Assembly: GCF_900112335.1 (NCBI RefSeq)
Contig: NZ_FOLG01000014.1
Span: forward strand, 1-64,000
Reading direction: 5' to 3'
Source of the DNA: Tropicimonas isoalkanivorans
GTDB lineage: Bacteria > Pseudomonadota > Alphaproteobacteria > Rhodobacterales > Rhodobacteraceae
Length of the DNA stretch: 64,000 bases
Shown here piece after piece: positions 46,543 to 53,639 of this stretch (positions are counted from its first letter, which is position 1; each line of letters begins with the position of its first letter). The notes under the pieces were generated by a model, which saw nothing but the letters and a program-made list of their open reading frames with translations, was not told the origin of the DNA and did no database searches. The translations under genes and the position numbers were made by a program.

Positions 46543-47191
46543 GGCGCAGTCGCAATCCGCACACATGCTCACCGCGCGCGACTTAGGGCTGGTCGCCTGC
46601 ACCCAGTGCACCCGCGTCTGGCCGGGTGGCACCGAACGGTGCGCCCGCTGCGGCGCCCCGCTTGTATCCCGCGACAGCAGCAGTCTAAGCCGGGTCTGGG
46701 CGTGGTGGACCGTGGGGCTGATCTGCTACATCCCGGCCAACCTCTACCCGATGCTCAAGACGACGCTGCTGGCCAAAACCTCCGGCGACACCATCGTTGG
46801 CGGGGCGGTCGCGCTGGCGATGCATGGCTCTTTTGGGGTGGCTTTGGTGATCCTCATCGCCTCGGTGGCCATCCCGGTCGGTAAGTTTGCCGCCGTCGCC
46901 TACCTGGCGTTGTCGGTCAAGCATCGCTGGAAGACAGACCACTTGAAGCGGACCCAGCTCTACGAGGTGGTGGAGTTCATCGGTCGTTGGTCGATGATCG
47001 ACGTCTTCGTGGTTGCGGTGCTGTCCGCGCTGGTACAGCTCTCCGTCGTCGTGTCCATCAACCCCGGACCGGCGGCAATAAACTTCGCGCTCTCGGTGAT
47101 CTTCACCATGTTCTCGGCCCGCTCCTTCGACAGCCGGTTGATTTGGGACAGCCTGGAGCCGCCGACAGACGACAAGGTGCCCCCGACGTGA
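46535..47191 (+). CDS. pqiA: Paraquat-inducible protein A (second copy)
   Basis: A 218-residue relative of the preceding protein, with zinc-ribbon Cys pairs CTQC and CARC (about residues 22-39) and four membrane segments, including the conserved IPANLYPML. The two adjacent genes correspond to the two halves of Escherichia coli PqiA. It overlaps the preceding gene by 8 bases and the following pqiB by 4 (GTGA). Confidence 0.9.
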   Translation: MAEAQSQSAHMLTARDLGLVACTQCTRVWPGGTERCARCGAPLVSRDSSSLSRVWAWWTVGLICYIPANLYPMLKTTLLAKTSGDTIVGGAVALAMHGSFGVALVILIASVAIPVGKFAAVAYLALSVKHRWKTDHLKRTQLYEVVEFIGRWSMIDVFVVAVLSALVQLSVVVSINPGPAAINFALSVIFTMFSARSFDSRLIWDSLEPPTDDKVPPT

Positions 47192-49890
47192 CAGACGATC
47201 CCGATCAAATTCCCCAGACGCCTGTGAAACCGGCCCGCCGAAGCCTTTTGGATCGGATCTCGATCGTCTGGGTTATACCAGCGACCGCCCTTGTGATCGC
47301 GCTCGCCATCGCCTGGCACAACCTCCAGAACCGGGGCGCTGTGATCGAGATAGCCTTCACCAACGCGGCCGGCATCGTCGCGGATCAGACGGAGCTGCGC
47401 TTCCGCGAGGTCTCGGTTGGCGTGGTGGAAGAAGTCACCTTCGCGCCCGGGCTGGACTCCGTGGTTGCGCACGTGCGGCTGGACAAGGAGGTCGAACCCT
47501 ACGTCGATTCCGAGGCTGTCTTCTGGGTGGTGCAGCCCGAGGTTTCCGCGCGGGGGATCACGGGGCTTAATACGGTCCTGAGCGGCGTCTACATCGAGGG
47601 AAGCTGGGACGGCGAGCCGCGCGGACTACACCGCAAATTCACCGGCGAGAACTACCGCCCCATCGCGCGCCCCGACATGAAGGGAAAACGCATCGTGTTG
47701 GGCTCCACGACCGGCAAGGGCCTCAAGGAGGGCACGCCGATCCTCTACAAGGGCCTGGAAGTCGGTCGCATCGGCCGGCCGCAGCTTTCGCCGGACGGGG
47801 TGACCATCACCGCGGAGGCGTTCATCGAGGCGCCGCACGACCAGTTGCTGTCGACCCGCTCCCGCTTCTGGGATTCCTCAGGCTTTTCGTTCAACCTCGG
47901 CGCGGGCGGGGCCGAGGTGAGCGTCGAGAGTCTGTCCGCGCTGATCTCGGGCGGCATCAGCTTCGAAACGGTGGTGTCCGGCGGCGCGCCGGTCGAGGAT
48001 GATCAGGAGTTCTCCGTTTTCGCCTCGCAGGACGATGCCCGCACCAGCCTGTTCGAGAATCAGGGCAAAGGCGGCCCCAAGATCGAGGTCGCCGTCGTGT
48101 TCGAGGAGAACGTCACCGGCTTGGTTGTCGGCGCGCCGGTGACCCTGCGCGGCCTGGAGATCGGCGAGGTGGTGGGCCTGACCGGCAAGGTCGACGAGGC
48201 GCAGTTCGGGGACGACCGGGTGCGCCTTGTGGTGGTTCTTGCTCTGGAGCCGGAACAGCTCCAGCTCGGCCCGGACGCAAACGGTCCCGAGGCGATCCTC
48301 GACTTCTTCCAGGAGGCGGTTGAAGACGGCTGGCGCGCCCGCCTTGCGCGCGCCTCGCTGCTAACCGGTGGGTTGAAAATCGAGTTCGTCCAGATTCCCG
48401 ACGCGGACCCGGCGAGCTTTGCCCGCGATGCCGATCCCTATCCGATCCTGCCCAGTGTCCCTGCCGAAATCGAGGGCGTGGGCGCATCCGCCGAGGGGCT
48501 CCTGAGCCGCGTCAGCGAACTGCCGATCGAGGATCTGCTCAATTCCGTCGTCGATCTGGCGCAGAACGCGGCGGCGTTGGTGTCCAGCGACGAAATCCAA
48601 TCGCTTCCGGCGGAGATCAAGGGCGCCGTGACGGACATACGTGAGGTGATCGGATCGGAGCAAATCCTGCAATTGCCGGATCGGCTCGGTGCAATCGGCG
48701 ACGAAATCGTCGCCGTTCTCGAGGACCTGCGCGCGCGTGAGGGCGTGGCCAAACTGGTCGCAGCGGTGGAAGACGCAGGCGAGGCGGCTCAATCGATCGC
48801 GACTGCCGCCGAGGGGGTGCCGGCCCTCATCGAGCGGGTGGAATCTGTCGCGGCCAAGGCCGAGGCGCTGGATCTTGAGGCCCTGCTGGGCCAGGCGACA
48901 GGTCTTGTGGAAAGCGCACAGGCAATTATCGGGACGGACGCAGCCCGCGCCCTGCCGGATAGCTTGAACACGGCGCTCGGTGGGCTCGACTCCGCCGTTC
49001 AGGAGGCGACCGATCTTCTGGCCGATCTGAACGAGGCCGACGCAGCCGCCCGGCTGAGCGAGGCGGTTGCCGCCGCCGGGGAGGCCGCAAGCGAAATCTC
49101 CTCGGCCGCGGAAGGCGTGCCGGCGCTGGTGGAACGGGTTGAGGCCGTGGCCGCCAAGGCGGAAGCGCTGGACCTTGAAACGGCCCTGGGCCGGGCAACC
49201 GGCCTGCTGGAAGACGCCCAGGCCGTTATTGGCACGGAGGCGGCACGTGGCCTGCCGGCGCGCCTCTCCAACTCGTTGGCCGAACTCGATGGCGCCGTGG
49301 CGGAGGCGACAACGCTTCTGGCCAGCGTCAACGAGGGGGATCCGGCGGCCGAACTCAACCGAGCCTTGGCGGCCGCAGGCGATGCCGCCACCAAAGTCAA
49401 CGAGGCGGTAGAAGGGGTGCCCGCGCTCGTCGAACGTATCGACGCGGTCGCGGCGCAGGCCCAGCAGATGGATCTCGACGCGCTCTCCGCCCAACTGTCG
49501 GCGTTGCTGGAAAGTGCGGACGCGCTGATTGACACGGAGGCGGCGCGCGCCTTGCCTGCCAGCCTCAATGGCGCGCTCGAACAGGTCCGCGCGGCGGTGG
49601 CGGAGTTGCGGGCGGGCGGCACCGTGGAAAACGTGAACGCAACGCTCGTTTCGGCCCGCGAGGCCGCGGGCGCTGTGGCAGACGTCTCCAACGACCTTCC
49701 ACAGCTGGTTCGTGAAACCGAAGCGGTGTTGCGGCAGGCGGAACAGGCCCTTGTCGTCTTCTCGGACAGCGGGACGCTCAACCGGGAAGCGCGGGACTCT
49801 CTGAGGGAAGTGTCGCGCGCGGCCGAGGCCGTCCGCTCTCTTGCGCGAACGCTCGAAAGGAAACCGAACGCCCTCATCACCGGCCGATAA
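47188..49890 (+). CDS. pqiB: MCE-domain protein PqiB with extended repeat-containing C-terminus
   Basis: A 900-residue periplasmic lipid-transport protein anchored by one N-terminal membrane segment (about residues 28-50). Three MCE domains follow (about 50-140, 160-270 and 290-420). The C-terminal half (about 430-900) is Ala/Glu/Leu-rich and should form long helices, the needle that crosses the periplasm in PqiB. E. coli PqiB is about 546 residues; the extra length here comes largely from three tandem repeats of 100 residues starting at 542, 642 and 742, each opening with EGVPAL. GTG 47188 overlaps the pqiA stop. Confidence 0.92.
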   Translation: MTDDPDQIPQTPVKPARRSLLDRISIVWVIPATALVIALAIAWHNLQNRGAVIEIAFTNAAGIVADQTELRFREVSVGVVEEVTFAPGLDSVVAHVRLDKEVEPYVDSEAVFWVVQPEVSARGITGLNTVLSGVYIEGSWDGEPRGLHRKFTGENYRPIARPDMKGKRIVLGSTTGKGLKEGTPILYKGLEVGRIGRPQLSPDGVTITAEAFIEAPHDQLLSTRSRFWDSSGFSFNLGAGGAEVSVESLSALISGGISFETVVSGGAPVEDDQEFSVFASQDDARTSLFENQGKGGPKIEVAVVFEENVTGLVVGAPVTLRGLEIGEVVGLTGKVDEAQFGDDRVRLVVVLALEPEQLQLGPDANGPEAILDFFQEAVEDGWRARLARASLLTGGLKIEFVQIPDADPASFARDADPYPILPSVPAEIEGVGASAEGLLSRVSELPIEDLLNSVVDLAQNAAALVSSDEIQSLPAEIKGAVTDIREVIGSEQILQLPDRLGAIGDEIVAVLEDLRAREGVAKLVAAVEDAGEAAQSIATAAEGVPALIERVESVAAKAEALDLEALLGQATGLVESAQAIIGTDAARALPDSLNTALGGLDSAVQEATDLLADLNEADAAARLSEAVAAAGEAASEISSAAEGVPALVERVEAVAAKAEALDLETALGRATGLLEDAQAVIGTEAARGLPARLSNSLAELDGAVAEATTLLASVNEGDPAAELNRALAAAGDAATKVNEAVEGVPALVERIDAVAAQAQQMDLDALSAQLSALLESADALIDTEAARALPASLNGALEQVRAAVAELRAGGTVENVNATLVSAREAAGAVADVSNDLPQLVRETEAVLRQAEQALVVFSDSGTLNREARDSLREVSRAAEAVRSLARTLERKPNALITGR
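48811..49689 (+). repeat. Three tandem 300-base coding repeats inside pqiB
   Basis: Units begin at 48811, 49111 and 49411, exactly 300 bases apart, each starting with a codon run for EGVPALIER or EGVPALVER and containing a (T/I)GT(D/E)AAR or DTEAAR block. The first two are very similar; the third is diverged and about 93 codons. A more degenerate unit seems to precede them (from about 48510). Confidence 0.85.
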
Positions 49891-49908: not shown

Positions 49909-49974
49909 CTCCCGCCCGTCGGCGGCGCATCGCAGATGCGCCTTCTCCCGTTGGGCCAGGCAGGCTTCGCCTGC
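49909..49974 (-). repeat. Two-hairpin repeat, copy 1
   Basis: Read on the minus strand: hairpin A (GCAGGC, loop, GCCTGC; 49974-49960), linker TGGCCCAAC (49958-49950), hairpin B (GGCGCATC, loop, GATGCGCC; 49942-49924), then GGCGGGAG (49916-49909). Linker and tail match the copies at 50107 and 53569, while the stems differ but still pair. Confidence 0.75.
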
Positions 49975-50106
49975 GGCATCGCACAGGTGGAACTCCTGGT
50001 GTGACCCGACAGTCGAGGCTCGGTTCCGGGTCGCCGTGGGATGGTGATAGTCGCAAGCCTGAAGATCCGTCCCGCAGGACGCGCTTCGTCCGTGCATCAG
50101 ACTGCA

Positions 50107-50175
50107 GCCGCGCGCCAGCGCGGCGTGGCCCAACTGCGGGCGACCCATCTTCGATGGGTCTTTCGCAGGCGGGAG
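50107..50175 (+). repeat. Two-hairpin repeat, copy 2
   Basis: Hairpin A is GCCGCGC-gcca-GCGCGGC (50107-50124); linker TGGCCCAAC (50126-50134); hairpin B is GACCCATC-ttc-GATGGGTC (50142-50160); tail GGCGGGAG (50168-50175). The hairpin B stem differs from copy 1 at two or more base pairs with both sides changed. It lies 84 bases before pqiC. Confidence 0.75.
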
Positions 50176-50259
50176 GTCCCCGACGCGCGGTATCGCCTTG
50201 CCGGGCGCAGATGCGCCGCTATGCTGCGGCGGACCCGCGACAGTGCCTCAGAGATCGAT

Positions 50260-50817
50260 ATGCGCCCCCTTCCATTCGCCCTTGCCGTGATTTGCCTGCT
50301 GGCCGCCTGTGGCGGACCTGCCGTTCGCTATGCTGCCCCGCCCGTTCCATCCGGCAGCCGCATCGGCATCTCCGTCTCTCGGCTCGAGGTTCGGGAGGTG
50401 TCGCTGCCGGCCTATGCCCAGACGGAGGAGATCTGGCAGGAGTTCGCGGACGGCTCGCTTCGGTCTGAAAGCGACACGCTCTGGGCCGACGATCCGTCCC
50501 GCGGGGTCACGCTCGAACTCAGCCAGCACCTGTCGGCACTGACGGGCGCCCGCGTGGCCGCCGAACCCTGGCCGTTCGAAGACCTGCCGCAGGCGCGCCT
50601 CGACGTTCGCGTGAGCGAGATGGTCGCGGGGGCCGACGGGCGTTTCCGGCTGGCCGGCCAATACTACGTCGCGAGCTACGGGGGCGGCCGCGACCGCTCG
50701 GGCGACTTCCGTGTCAGCGCGCCGATCGTACCCGACAGCGGATCGCCCGGCATCGCCGCCGCACGCGCCGCCGCGGTGCGCGACCTGGCGCGGCTGATCG
50801 CCTCCCGCGGGATCTGA
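50260..50817 (+). CDS. pqiC: Membrane-integrity lipoprotein PqiC (DUF330/ABC-type auxiliary)
   Basis: A 185-residue lipoprotein with lipobox LLAAC (cleavage before Cys17) and the DUF330/PqiC fold, including RLEVREVSLPAYAQ and the C-terminal ARLIASR. In the Pqi system it is an outer-membrane partner for the tip of the PqiB needle. It is separated from pqiB by 369 bases of repeat sequence rather than the usual short gap. The start ATG lacks a strong ribosome site. Confidence 0.87.
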   Translation: MRPLPFALAVICLLAACGGPAVRYAAPPVPSGSRIGISVSRLEVREVSLPAYAQTEEIWQEFADGSLRSESDTLWADDPSRGVTLELSQHLSALTGARVAAEPWPFEDLPQARLDVRVSEMVAGADGRFRLAGQYYVASYGGGRDRSGDFRVSAPIVPDSGSPGIAAARAAAVRDLARLIASRGI

Positions 50818-50901
50818 CGGCGCGGCGCGCGCGCCGGGCCAAACCGGCCGTAGGAGAAGGACCGCCACGCGTTGTCATGACCGAGTCCGCCTCAGACCGC
50901 C

Positions 50902-51912
50902 TCAGGCCGGACGCCCAAACAGCCTTAGCCGGCTCACCCCTCCGTCAGGGTGGATGTTGAACCGCACGTGGGTCACTGGCTTGGGATCGGCCAACTCCTC
51001 CCGGAATTCGTGGATGGCGTCCGCCGACAACTTCTGTTCCGGCAGAAGCGTCTCCCAGAACATCGAATCGGTGACCAGCGCATCGGTTAATCCGTCGCCA
51101 AAGCTCTGCATGTCCGCCGCCTGAAGCGAACAGCGGTCCGGGTAGTTCCCCTTGAAATGCGCGGTATCCACCTCGATGCGTTCTATGATTCCACGCGCGC
51201 CCAGGGCGAGCACCATCCAGTCGTGACCCGGCTCCCGCCGGCGGCGCGTTTCCCAGCCGTCGCCCATGTCGATGCCCCGCCCGGGCGCCAGCAGGCGGCG
51301 GAAATCGCCGTAGTGCGCATCCGACATCGCCAGGATCCGCCCGCCATTGAGGGAGGCCGCAAGGTCGATCTCCTTGCCGTCCTGGATCCGGTCCAACTCA
51401 GGCACGCCGAACACGCGCAGACGGGCGACGCCGCCGTCAGGGTAAATATGAAGCCTCAGGTGCGTCCAGCTCTCGAAGCTCTCGCAGCGGAAGAAGTGGT
51501 GAGCGTCAGGGCCAAGGGGGCGATTCGGCAGGATCTCGGCCCACCTCGTCTCGTCTGTCACCTCCCGGGTGCTCGTGGCCTCGATCTTGCAGGCCGGCGC
51601 GTAGTTGCCGGTGAAAAACCGCGTGTCCACGTCGAAGCCCAGAATGCGCCCCGGGGCGGCGAGCTGAATCACCGCGTGGTCATGCCCGCCGCCGCGGCGG
51701 CGCTGCGTCTCCCAGCCGTCCATCCATTTGCCATGCTCATCGAACTTGCCCGCAATGAACACCGGCTCACTATCTTCCAACATCCGCTCCAGGGGCGCGA
51801 AGAACTCGTTGGTTGCAGCCAGGGCGCGGGCGCCAAGCCCGGCGGACGCCAGGTTGATTCCCGTCCGGGCGAACAGGGGGACGTCGGGATTGAGGGATTC
51901 GATGGTTGGCAT
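50902..51912 (-). CDS. alc: Allantoicase
   Basis: Hydrolyses allantoate to ureidoglycolate and urea in purine breakdown. It is 336 residues with the family's two homologous jelly-roll domains, each containing a DGWETRRR- or DGWETQRR-type motif and an FxGNYxxxC segment (FTGNYAPAC, FKGNYPDRC) and ending in IxPDGGVxRLRxFG. It is divergent from the urate oxidase gene, so the two steps of one pathway share a control region. Confidence 0.95.
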   Translation of the reverse strand: MPTIESLNPDVPLFARTGINLASAGLGARALAATNEFFAPLERMLEDSEPVFIAGKFDEHGKWMDGWETQRRRGGGHDHAVIQLAAPGRILGFDVDTRFFTGNYAPACKIEATSTREVTDETRWAEILPNRPLGPDAHHFFRCESFESWTHLRLHIYPDGGVARLRVFGVPELDRIQDGKEIDLAASLNGGRILAMSDAHYGDFRRLLAPGRGIDMGDGWETRRRREPGHDWMVLALGARGIIERIEVDTAHFKGNYPDRCSLQAADMQSFGDGLTDALVTDSMFWETLLPEQKLSADAIHEFREELADPKPVTHVRFNIHPDGGVSRLRLFGRPA

Positions 51913-52227
51913 GAGCGCTTTCGGTTGTTCCTGTGCTCCGGCGAAACGCCGGCAAAATGGTATCTGGTGTGACGCGGCCCTCCGGCCCCGTTGCGCCGAT
52001 GAAAAGATCGCGCGTTCCGCTGGCCAGACTTTCGCCCGCACTCGACGTTCACGATACACTCAATCGGTGTCGGGCCGCTGCCGGATTTTCGCGTGTCGTC
52101 CCCGGGTCGCGCGCAATTCCTAGTCGACGGTCGCATCGGCGCGCAAGGGGAAGCGGGCAGCGCGTGTTTCAGTTTGATCTCGACGCACCTTTCGGAAACT
52201 CTCGAACGAAAACACGGGGAGACGGCG
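51913..52227. other. Divergent control region of the purine catabolism genes
   Basis: These 315 bases lie between allantoicase and puuD. A short direct repeat TGGTATC-TGGTGTG lies about 50 bases from the allantoicase start (51958-51971). I found no palindrome that I would assign to a regulator, and no small gene. Confidence 0.4.
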
Positions 52228-53469
52228 ATGTTCGATGCGACAATACTCTGGTCCTGGGCCGAATTCGCGGTGCGATGGCTGCACGTGATCGCCGGCATCG
52301 CCTGGATCGGATCTTCGTTCTACTTCATCGCCCTCGATCTGGGCCTGCGGAAAGCGCCCGATCTGCCGCAAGGCGTTCATGGCGAGGAGTGGCAGGTCCA
52401 CGGTGGCGGCTTCTACCATATCCAGAAATACCTGGTGGCCCCGGAGCGGCTTCCTGACCACCTGATCTGGTTCAAATGGGAAAGCTACACCACCTGGCTC
52501 AGCGGCTTCGCGATGCTGGTGCTCGTGTACTATTTCGGTGCGGACCTGTTCCTGGTGGACCCGACCGTGCTGGACATGCCGTCCTGGCTGGCGATCCTGA
52601 TCTCCCTCTTCTCGCTCGGCCTCGGATGGCTCGCTTACGACCGCATCTGCAAGTCGCCGTTCGGCGAAGACAACACCAAGCTGATGCTTCTGCTCTACCT
52701 GATCCTGGTCGTTCTGGCGTTCGCCTACACACACATCTTCTCGGGGCGGGCGGCTTTCGTGCACTTGGGCGCCATAACGGCGACCGTGATGTCGGCAAAC
52801 GTGTTCTTCATCATCATTCCGAACCAGAAGATCGTGGTGGAGGATCTGAAGGCCGGCCGGGTGCCCGACGCCAAGTACGGCAAGATCGCCAAGCAGCGGT
52901 CGACCCACAACAACTACCTGACGCTGCCGGTCGTCTTCCTCATGCTGTCGAACCACTACCCGCTTGCCTTCGCCGGCGACTGGAACTGGGTGATCGCGAG
53001 CCTGGTGTTCCTGATGGGTGTGACGATCCGCCATTATTTCAATACCCTGCACGCCAGCGACTTTCCGAAAAAGGGGCCGATCTGGACCTGGGGGGCCACG
53101 GCGCTGCTCTTCGCGGCAATCGTCTGGCTCTCGATGGCCCCGCTCTATGACGCTGACGAGGGCTGGGAAGAAAGCGCGCTCAGCCCCGCGAGCCAGCGAT
53201 TTGCGGAGGCCGAAGGGTTCGAGGAGGCGGTCGACATCGTCATGGGCAACTGCTCGATGTGCCACAGCCCGGAACCCGGCTGGGAGGGGATCACCGCCCC
53301 ACCGAAGGGCGTGAAGCTGGTGACGCAAAGCGACGTGGCACGCCATGCGCCGGAAATCTATCTGCAGGCCGGTGTCACCCACGCGATGCCGCCGGGACGG
53401 GCGAACTTCATGGCGCCGGAGGACCGAGCGAGTCTGGTTCGCTGGTATCGAGCGGGTGCCGAGGGCTGA
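52228..53469 (+). CDS. puuD: Membrane urate oxidase PuuD with fused cytochrome c
   Basis: A 413-residue integral membrane urate hydroxylase. About eight hydrophobic segments make up the first 310 residues (HVIAGIAWIGSSFYF is characteristic), followed by a periplasmic cytochrome c domain with CSMCH (342-346) and a likely Met ligand in HAMPPGRANFM. Unlike soluble uricase it sends electrons to the respiratory chain. GGGGAGA precedes the ATG. It pairs functionally with the divergent allantoicase. Confidence 0.94.
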   Translation: MFDATILWSWAEFAVRWLHVIAGIAWIGSSFYFIALDLGLRKAPDLPQGVHGEEWQVHGGGFYHIQKYLVAPERLPDHLIWFKWESYTTWLSGFAMLVLVYYFGADLFLVDPTVLDMPSWLAILISLFSLGLGWLAYDRICKSPFGEDNTKLMLLLYLILVVLAFAYTHIFSGRAAFVHLGAITATVMSANVFFIIIPNQKIVVEDLKAGRVPDAKYGKIAKQRSTHNNYLTLPVVFLMLSNHYPLAFAGDWNWVIASLVFLMGVTIRHYFNTLHASDFPKKGPIWTWGATALLFAAIVWLSMAPLYDADEGWEESALSPASQRFAEAEGFEEAVDIVMGNCSMCHSPEPGWEGITAPPKGVKLVTQSDVARHAPEIYLQAGVTHAMPPGRANFMAPEDRASLVRWYRAGAEG

Positions 53470-53511
53470 CCTCTGCCCTCATTCACTGGTGGGGGAGGGC
53501 GCACTCAGCAC

Positions 53512-53567
53512 CTTCTTGTGTCGAAAAATATCCCCGCCGGAGGCACGATTTTTCGTCCGAAAAATCG
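53512..53567 (-). repeat. Dispersed hairpin-plus-tail repeat, copy C
   Basis: Read on the minus strand: a perfect 10-base hairpin with a 2-base loop (CGATTTTTCG/CGAAAAATCG, 53567-53546), then GCCTCCGGCGGGGATATT, TTTCGACAC and AAGAAG (53544-53512). The tail matches copies at 25693, 42531 and 60955. It touches the two-hairpin repeat at 53569. Confidence 0.75.
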
Positions 53568-53568
53568 C

Positions 53569-53639
53569 CCGCGCGCACCGCGCGCGGCCTGGCCCAACCG
53601 GAGGAGGCGCATCTTTGATGCGTTGACACCGGGCGGGAG
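53569..53639 (+). repeat. Two-hairpin repeat, copy 3
   Basis: Hairpin A is CCGCGCGC-acc-GCGCGCGG (53569-53587); linker TGGCCCAAC (53590-53598); hairpin B is CGCATC-ttt-GATGCG (53608-53622); tail GGCGGGAG (53632-53639). It has the same layout as copies 1 and 2 near pqiC. Confidence 0.75.

Follow-up and report, generated by a model that had tools for sequence, protein, structure and literature searches.

The window, a 64,000-nucleotide stretch of Tropicimonas isoalkanivorans DNA (contig NZ_FOLG01000014.1), carries three copies of a repeat in which two hairpins are joined by fixed sequences while the stems vary and remain paired. The best reading of this repeat is a new REPIN/BIME-like family, for which no published description was found in a partial literature survey. 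The first-pass annotation had left the choice between a structured RNA, a REP-like element and a protein-binding DNA hairpin. Of these, the REP-like element fits best, the copies being dispersed, extragenic, palindromic and often arranged as inverted doublets, and no Rfam family corresponds to them. The explanation we favor, as somewhat probable, is that the family was spread by a mechanism perhaps lost and that it has been retained at many sites, where its hairpins would act as a barrier at the 3' ends of transcripts.

Architecture of the element

All three copies described in the first-pass annotation were recovered at the same positions (Table 1). Each consists of hairpin A, one or two bases, the linker TGGCCCAAC, a hairpin B region of exactly 33 nt and the outer end GGCGGGAG. 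Copies 1 and 2 form one dimer, and copy 3 is a single half. The two facing copies indeed lie inside the pqi operon, between pqiB and pqiC, with the outer end of copy 1 located 18 nt behind the pqiB stop. Copy 3 is placed behind a urate oxidase-domain gene (here named puuD) and an acyltransferase gene.

Table 1. Features of the repeat and neighboring genes in the window (linkers are exact matches to TGGCCCAAC).
Feature	Position	Strand	Remarks
Inverted dimer	49909..50175	.	267 bp, pqiB/pqiC spacer; two facing half-elements, GGCGGGAG ends outward
Half-element 1 (copy 1)	49909..49974	-	covariance model R1, 71.5 bits
Core of copy 1, TGGCCCAAC to GGCGGGAG	49909..49958	-	
Hairpin A of copy 1	49960..49974	-	GCAGGC-GAA-GCCTGC
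Linker TGGCCCAAC of copy 1	49950..49958	-	conserved
Hairpin B of copy 1	49917..49949	-	G.A/A.G pairs in outer part
Outer end GGCGGGAG of copy 1	49909..49916	-	conserved
Half-element 2 (copy 2)	50107..50175	+	covariance model R1, 57.9 bits
Core of copy 2, TGGCCCAAC to GGCGGGAG	50126..50175	+	
Hairpin A of copy 2	50107..50124	+	
Linker TGGCCCAAC of copy 2	50126..50134	+	
Hairpin B of copy 2	50135..50167	+	
Outer end GGCGGGAG of copy 2	50168..50175	+	
Half-element 3 (copy 3, single half)	53569..53639	+	covariance model R1, 53.5 bits over 53575-53639
Core of copy 3, TGGCCCAAC to GGCGGGAG	53590..53639	+	
Hairpin A of copy 3	53569..53587	+	
Linker TGGCCCAAC of copy 3	53590..53598	+	
Hairpin B of copy 3	53599..53631	+	
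Outer end GGCGGGAG of copy 3	53632..53639	+	
Hairpin A' of copy 3, then GCGATTTTTC	53569..53587	-	terminator-like for - strand acyltransferase gene; consensus match only
pqiB	47188..49890	+	MlaD domains (Pfam); upstream of dimer
pqiC	50260..50817	+	ABC_trans_aux (Pfam); downstream of dimer

The unit is often an inverted dimer of the form CTCCCGCC-B'-GTTGGGCCA-A'-spacer-A-TGGCCCAAC-B-GGCGGGAG. The 43 dimers collected measure 128-309 bp and always have A inward and GGCGGGAG outward. About 40% of the copies in the host genome (G000) are in dimers. The partner end word CTCCCGC stands upstream in 17 of 41 host copies and downstream in 2; in the named genomes the counts are 43 and 2 of 121. Unit size differs between lineages. 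The genus of G073 has dozens of units of about 215 bp, with 72-84% identity, in G015 the dimers are about 330 bp long, and in Leisingera a unit of about 130 bp has a single A hairpin common to both halves. In G005, all 18 copies that were examined are single halves; multiplication was thus not confined to the dimer. The G015 dimers (L361, L363, L365, L367) have a common conserved interior with two further hairpins. Inspection by eye of the ORFs inside the wide-spaced pairs L028, L037 and L042 recognized no transposase; we take the 117-aa ORF of L037 to resemble 5-hydroxyisourate hydrolase.

Conservation of the linkers held up, while their description as single-stranded was too simple: within a dimer, TGGCCCAAC has its complement in the GTTGGGCCA of the partner, and GGCGGGAG in the partner's CTCCCGCC. 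In the predicted RNA fold of the dimer of copies 1 and 2 (z -3.5), these complementary linkers form two helices and the A and B hairpins form arms; the DNA fold of copy 2 reaches z -3.0. One dimer strand is predicted to be able to fold as a four-way junction with P1 = CTCCCGCC/GGCGGGAG and P2 = GTTGGGCCA/TGGCCCAAC, in which B and B' would be the side arms and the A hairpins would lie inside.

Pairing and covariation

The stems differ between copies and still pair, as the three copies had suggested, and the pairing test on 47 aligned host copies bears this out. Of 21 pairs, 20 changed on both sides, in both stems. Standard pairs occupy 84% of cells compared with 59% after shuffling, and the covariation score of 0.519 (shuffled 0.137, sd 0.012) was reached in 0 of 500 shuffles. 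A slide of the pairing partner by one column abolishes the signal. This covariation beyond chance across all aligned copies strongly supports selection on paired structure. That these are chance palindromes in GC-rich spacers is already refuted and has a negligible probability. Short hairpins are common in a GC-rich genome, but no shuffle attained the observed covariation, and the pattern TGGCCCAAC-N20..50-GCGGGAG has 27 matches in the 5.0 Mb host genome against 2 for a reversed-pattern control.

Since the 47-copy alignment had been fitted to the structure, pairing was also tested from position alone. Position i of the 33-nt B regions was paired with position 34-i, and 3' halves swapped among copies served as control. 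In the host genome, 9.6 of the 15 hairpin B positions form Watson-Crick pairs, compared with 7.4 (sd 0.3) after swapping, and hairpin A has 6.6 net pairs against 4.4 (sd 0.2). The B hairpin is confirmed, but its extent is larger than first described: it is a symmetric stem of 15 positions with a 3-nt loop and not just 6-8 inner pairs. The outer B positions 3/4 and 6/7 are either tandem G.A/A.G, as in most copies, or Watson-Crick; mixed states are rare at 3/4 and commoner at 6/7. Such G.A/A.G pairs may form a sheared-GA motif on the strand in which they occur. Alternatively, the coupling of the outer pairs may be caused by shared ancestry of the class.

Distribution within Rhodobacteraceae

Because MAFFT alignment of the variable stems was poor, the covariance model was seeded with five equal-length, gap-free copies. 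A search of the host and its relatives with this model, which the first-pass annotation had proposed, identified a dispersed family with 47 copies in the Tropicimonas host genome, nearly all intergenic, and more across Rhodobacteraceae. Copies were counted at E up to 0.01, where E-values are rough and the relatives are a sample. Congeners hold 0-66 copies each, and a genome of another genus holds 35, mostly near-identical. Within the family, 22 of 149 sampled genomes are positive, compared with 0 of 12 genomes of other families. The matches listed are all from Rhodobacteraceae or consistent with it (Ruegeria, Leisingera, Phaeobacter, Tritonibacter, Tropicibacter and Tropicimonas, among others). 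As far as seen, the repeat family is specific to Rhodobacteraceae. Plasmid sequences gave no match to the G073-type sequence, and the 10 pattern matches in viral contigs are below a rough chance estimate.

A specific structured-RNA family is not supported. No Rfam family matches at its gathering score, and relaxed thresholds added nothing of weight, the best scores below threshold being 18.7 bits for P33 and 16.3 bits for SorX, an sRNA from Rhodobacter. The SorX match (53561-53628, - strand; gathering score 46.6) is probably hairpin similarity only. GlsR24 matches in G015 loci (28-29 bits) fall far short of the gathering score for that family, 100, and were put down to chance. A relation to the Cuckoo/CCUCCUCCC sRNAs was rejected; only the GGGAGGAG class has their motif, on its reverse strand, and the other classes have lost it.

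Placement behind stop codons

Most often the repeat is found between convergent genes, and its outer GGCGGGAG end as a rule follows the stop of an opposite-strand gene at a distance of 2-30 nt; distances are approximate, as genes were called with a simple codon-usage finder. In the host, 34 of 47 copies have the antisense gene on the GGCGGGAG side, and the median distance from outer end to stop in the named genomes is 25 nt. Among the named-genome loci, which were fetched with the pattern of the commonest class and are not a random sample, convergent spacers account for 66 of 97 contexts (p = 5e-24; odds ratio 13 relative to the remaining spacers in these loci). In 52 of these 66 convergent contexts it is the GGCGGGAG end that lies closer to a stop (p = 3e-6). 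In a dimer, each of the two convergent genes has one of the ends close to its stop.

Convergent placement and a GC-rich hairpin behind stops are what a bidirectional terminator serving convergent genes would show, and copy 3 is followed by GCGATTTTTC on the - strand. We nevertheless consider this explanation very unlikely for the family. T makes up at most about 20% of any 5-nt bin in the 50 nt after GTTGGGCC (143 copies), about 30% of copies are in tandem or divergent contexts, and a terminator would not need fixed linkers. The presence of two or more hairpins also sets the element apart from intrinsic terminators. With no T-run after hairpin A', the element is not an intrinsic terminator in general. 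Copy 3 alone may be one; the call is based on terminator-consensus matches, of which 4 were found and 2.8 are expected in shuffles.

The same tight placement behind stops, seen in most host copies, is compatible with a role in transcript 3' ends. In one alternative the repeat is a transcribed 3'-UTR RNA element functional for the host, with growth in copy number being secondary. In mRNA sense it would read stop, CUCCCGCC, hairpin B', GUUGGGCC, hairpin A', and it would be bound by an RNA-binding protein or act as a 3' stability or processing signal. The dimer ends near both convergent stops and the conservation of orthologous sites with compensatory change (see below) agree with this. On the other hand, copy number ranges from 0 to 66 within one genus, Rfam holds no such family, and REPs also usually sit downstream of genes. 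In addition, the tandem G.A/A.G pairs are stable only on the strand antisense to the neighboring gene and become C.U mismatches in the mRNA. A host-functional 3'-UTR element as the primary identity is therefore judged unlikely.

Persistence and turnover at orthologous sites

The pqiB-pqiC site of G153 also holds a dimer. Among congeners the site behind pqiB is occupied in five and empty in four; three of the four empty ones form a clade, so loss would give the same pattern. In G150 a distance of about 19 kb separates pqiB from pqiC on a single contig (L177, L168), the break coming directly after the half-element downstream of pqiB. At the puuD 3' site, that of window copy 3, G153, G150 and G007 hold copies as pairs. 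Of 35 G153 loci sampled, about 15 match a host-genome copy in site and flanking genes, orthology being approximate as well, and the stems at these common sites are changed but still paired. These shared sites together with the varying occupancy show that copies both persist and turn over. In the locus pairs L331/L064 and L328/L065, each dimer half keeps its own stem subclass at orthologous sites of two species, which suggests locus-specific conservation rather than frequent re-insertion.

Such persistence exceeds the expectation for a purely selfish repeat and thereby counts against the REPIN/BIME-like reading. The sampled relatives, none of them close enough, gave no clean empty site from which target boundaries could be read, and at 70-85% identity insertion and loss are indistinguishable. 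No target-site duplication was seen in the flanks of the collected dimers.

Mobilization

A RAYT-type transposase had been suggested as a partner to look for, and this expectation failed. None of four copy-rich genomes (the host, G150, G153 and G005) contains a Y1_Tnp (PF01797), and across 149 genomes the occurrence of this transposase is not associated with that of the element (p = 0.47). REPINs are described as inverted doublets whose ends are conserved and whose spacers change in a compensatory way, alongside decayed singlets (PMC3116915); the dimer architecture and the compensatory changes match this description. A REP/REPIN proper, cleaved as single-stranded DNA by a tyrosine transposase now or until that enzyme was lost, is also in line with a weak excess of Y1_Tnp among sampled genomes with at least 10 copies (3 of 10; Fisher p = 0.065). 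However, REPs and REPINs carry a GTAG/GTGG tetranucleotide 0-2 nt 5' of the hairpin (PMC6006769), and no such guide is found here; the conserved letters are those of TGGCCCAAC and GGCGGGAG, and the base before TGG varies. The sole tnpA near a copy, an IS200-type gene in G015, lies inside the spacer of one dimer (L355, with the same conserved interior). On this ground it was rejected as a REPtron; a second copy of this tnpA stands without the element. RAYT mobilization is consequently regarded as quite improbable. Neither a candidate transposase for the repeat nor a parent insertion sequence with these ends was found.

Relation to known repeats

With REPINs and BIMEs the roseobacter repeat shares dispersed extragenic palindromes, inverted doublets, conserved ends, a variable but paired interior, apparent singlet remnants and patchy, lineage-specific variants. 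In contrast to them, it lacks the GTAG/GTGG tag and a RAYT, occurs in tens and not hundreds of copies, has two hairpins and fixed linkers in each half, and forms units of 128-309 bp. CGTC-tagged REPs are closer in being alphaproteobacterial, in having no dedicated transposase and in their common dimers. They are defined by one 8-9 bp stem with A-T in the first positions, a 4-5 nt loop, a terminal CGTC and a CCA tail (PMC3733652), whereas hairpin B has 15 positions and a 3-nt loop, with CGTC found only within the stem, in some copies. We conclude that the repeat is REPIN/BIME-like in anatomy and behavior and stands outside both the GTAG/RAYT and the CGTC families. MITEs and non-autonomous elements derived from IS200/IS605 are likewise short and non-coding with imperfect terminal inverted repeats and subterminal hairpins; for the roseobacter repeat, neither a parent insertion sequence with its ends nor a target-site duplication was seen.

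Proposed mechanism and significance

For the REPIN/BIME-like family we propose that the full unit is the inverted dimer, each half running from outer end GGCGGGAG through hairpin B and linker TGGCCCAAC to hairpin A. A trans-acting factor, specific for sequence and structure, would read the fixed ends and linkers on folded single-stranded DNA. Recognition of this kind would allow the stems to drift as long as they still pair. Copies would become established or be preserved chiefly after stop codons, most of all in convergent spacers, and would persist where a transcript can bear, or even profit from, a strong GC hairpin at its 3' end that blocks 3' exonucleases or read-through. This probable barrier role, passive or useful, parallels the proposal for REPs. 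The pqi dimer could shift expression of pqiB relative to pqiC. A more specific version is put forward tentatively, as possible but not the likelier outcome: a Y1-free REPIN-like class, multiplied by a factor that reads the linkers of the four-way-junction dimer and recruited by the host to serve as a paired 3'-end signal where two genes converge.

Most of what is known of REP-type repeats comes from gammaproteobacteria that have RAYTs. The present family offers many copies, relatives with 0-66 of them and a clear structure as a test case for spread with neither RAYT nor tag. How CGTC repeats spread without a RAYT has been raised as a question (PMC3733652). In addition, many genes of ecologically important marine bacteria have a copy at their 3' end, where the family may affect transcript ends and operon balance.

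Flanking sequences

A second repeat, CTTGTGTCGAAAAATATCCCCGCCGGAGGCACGATTTTTCG, adjoins copy 3 (53512-53585); throughout the genus it occurs repeatedly, in many cases with no element beside it, and next to the G005 copies it takes a GGAGTATTT form. It is possibly a common 3'-end or terminator module. The flanks right of GGCGGGAG often extend this end into GGGGNNCTCCC...GGGAGNNCCCC (49909-49916 and 50168-50175 with flanks; L368:10841-11045), which may amount to a third, weak hairpin or may lengthen the terminal inverted repeat.
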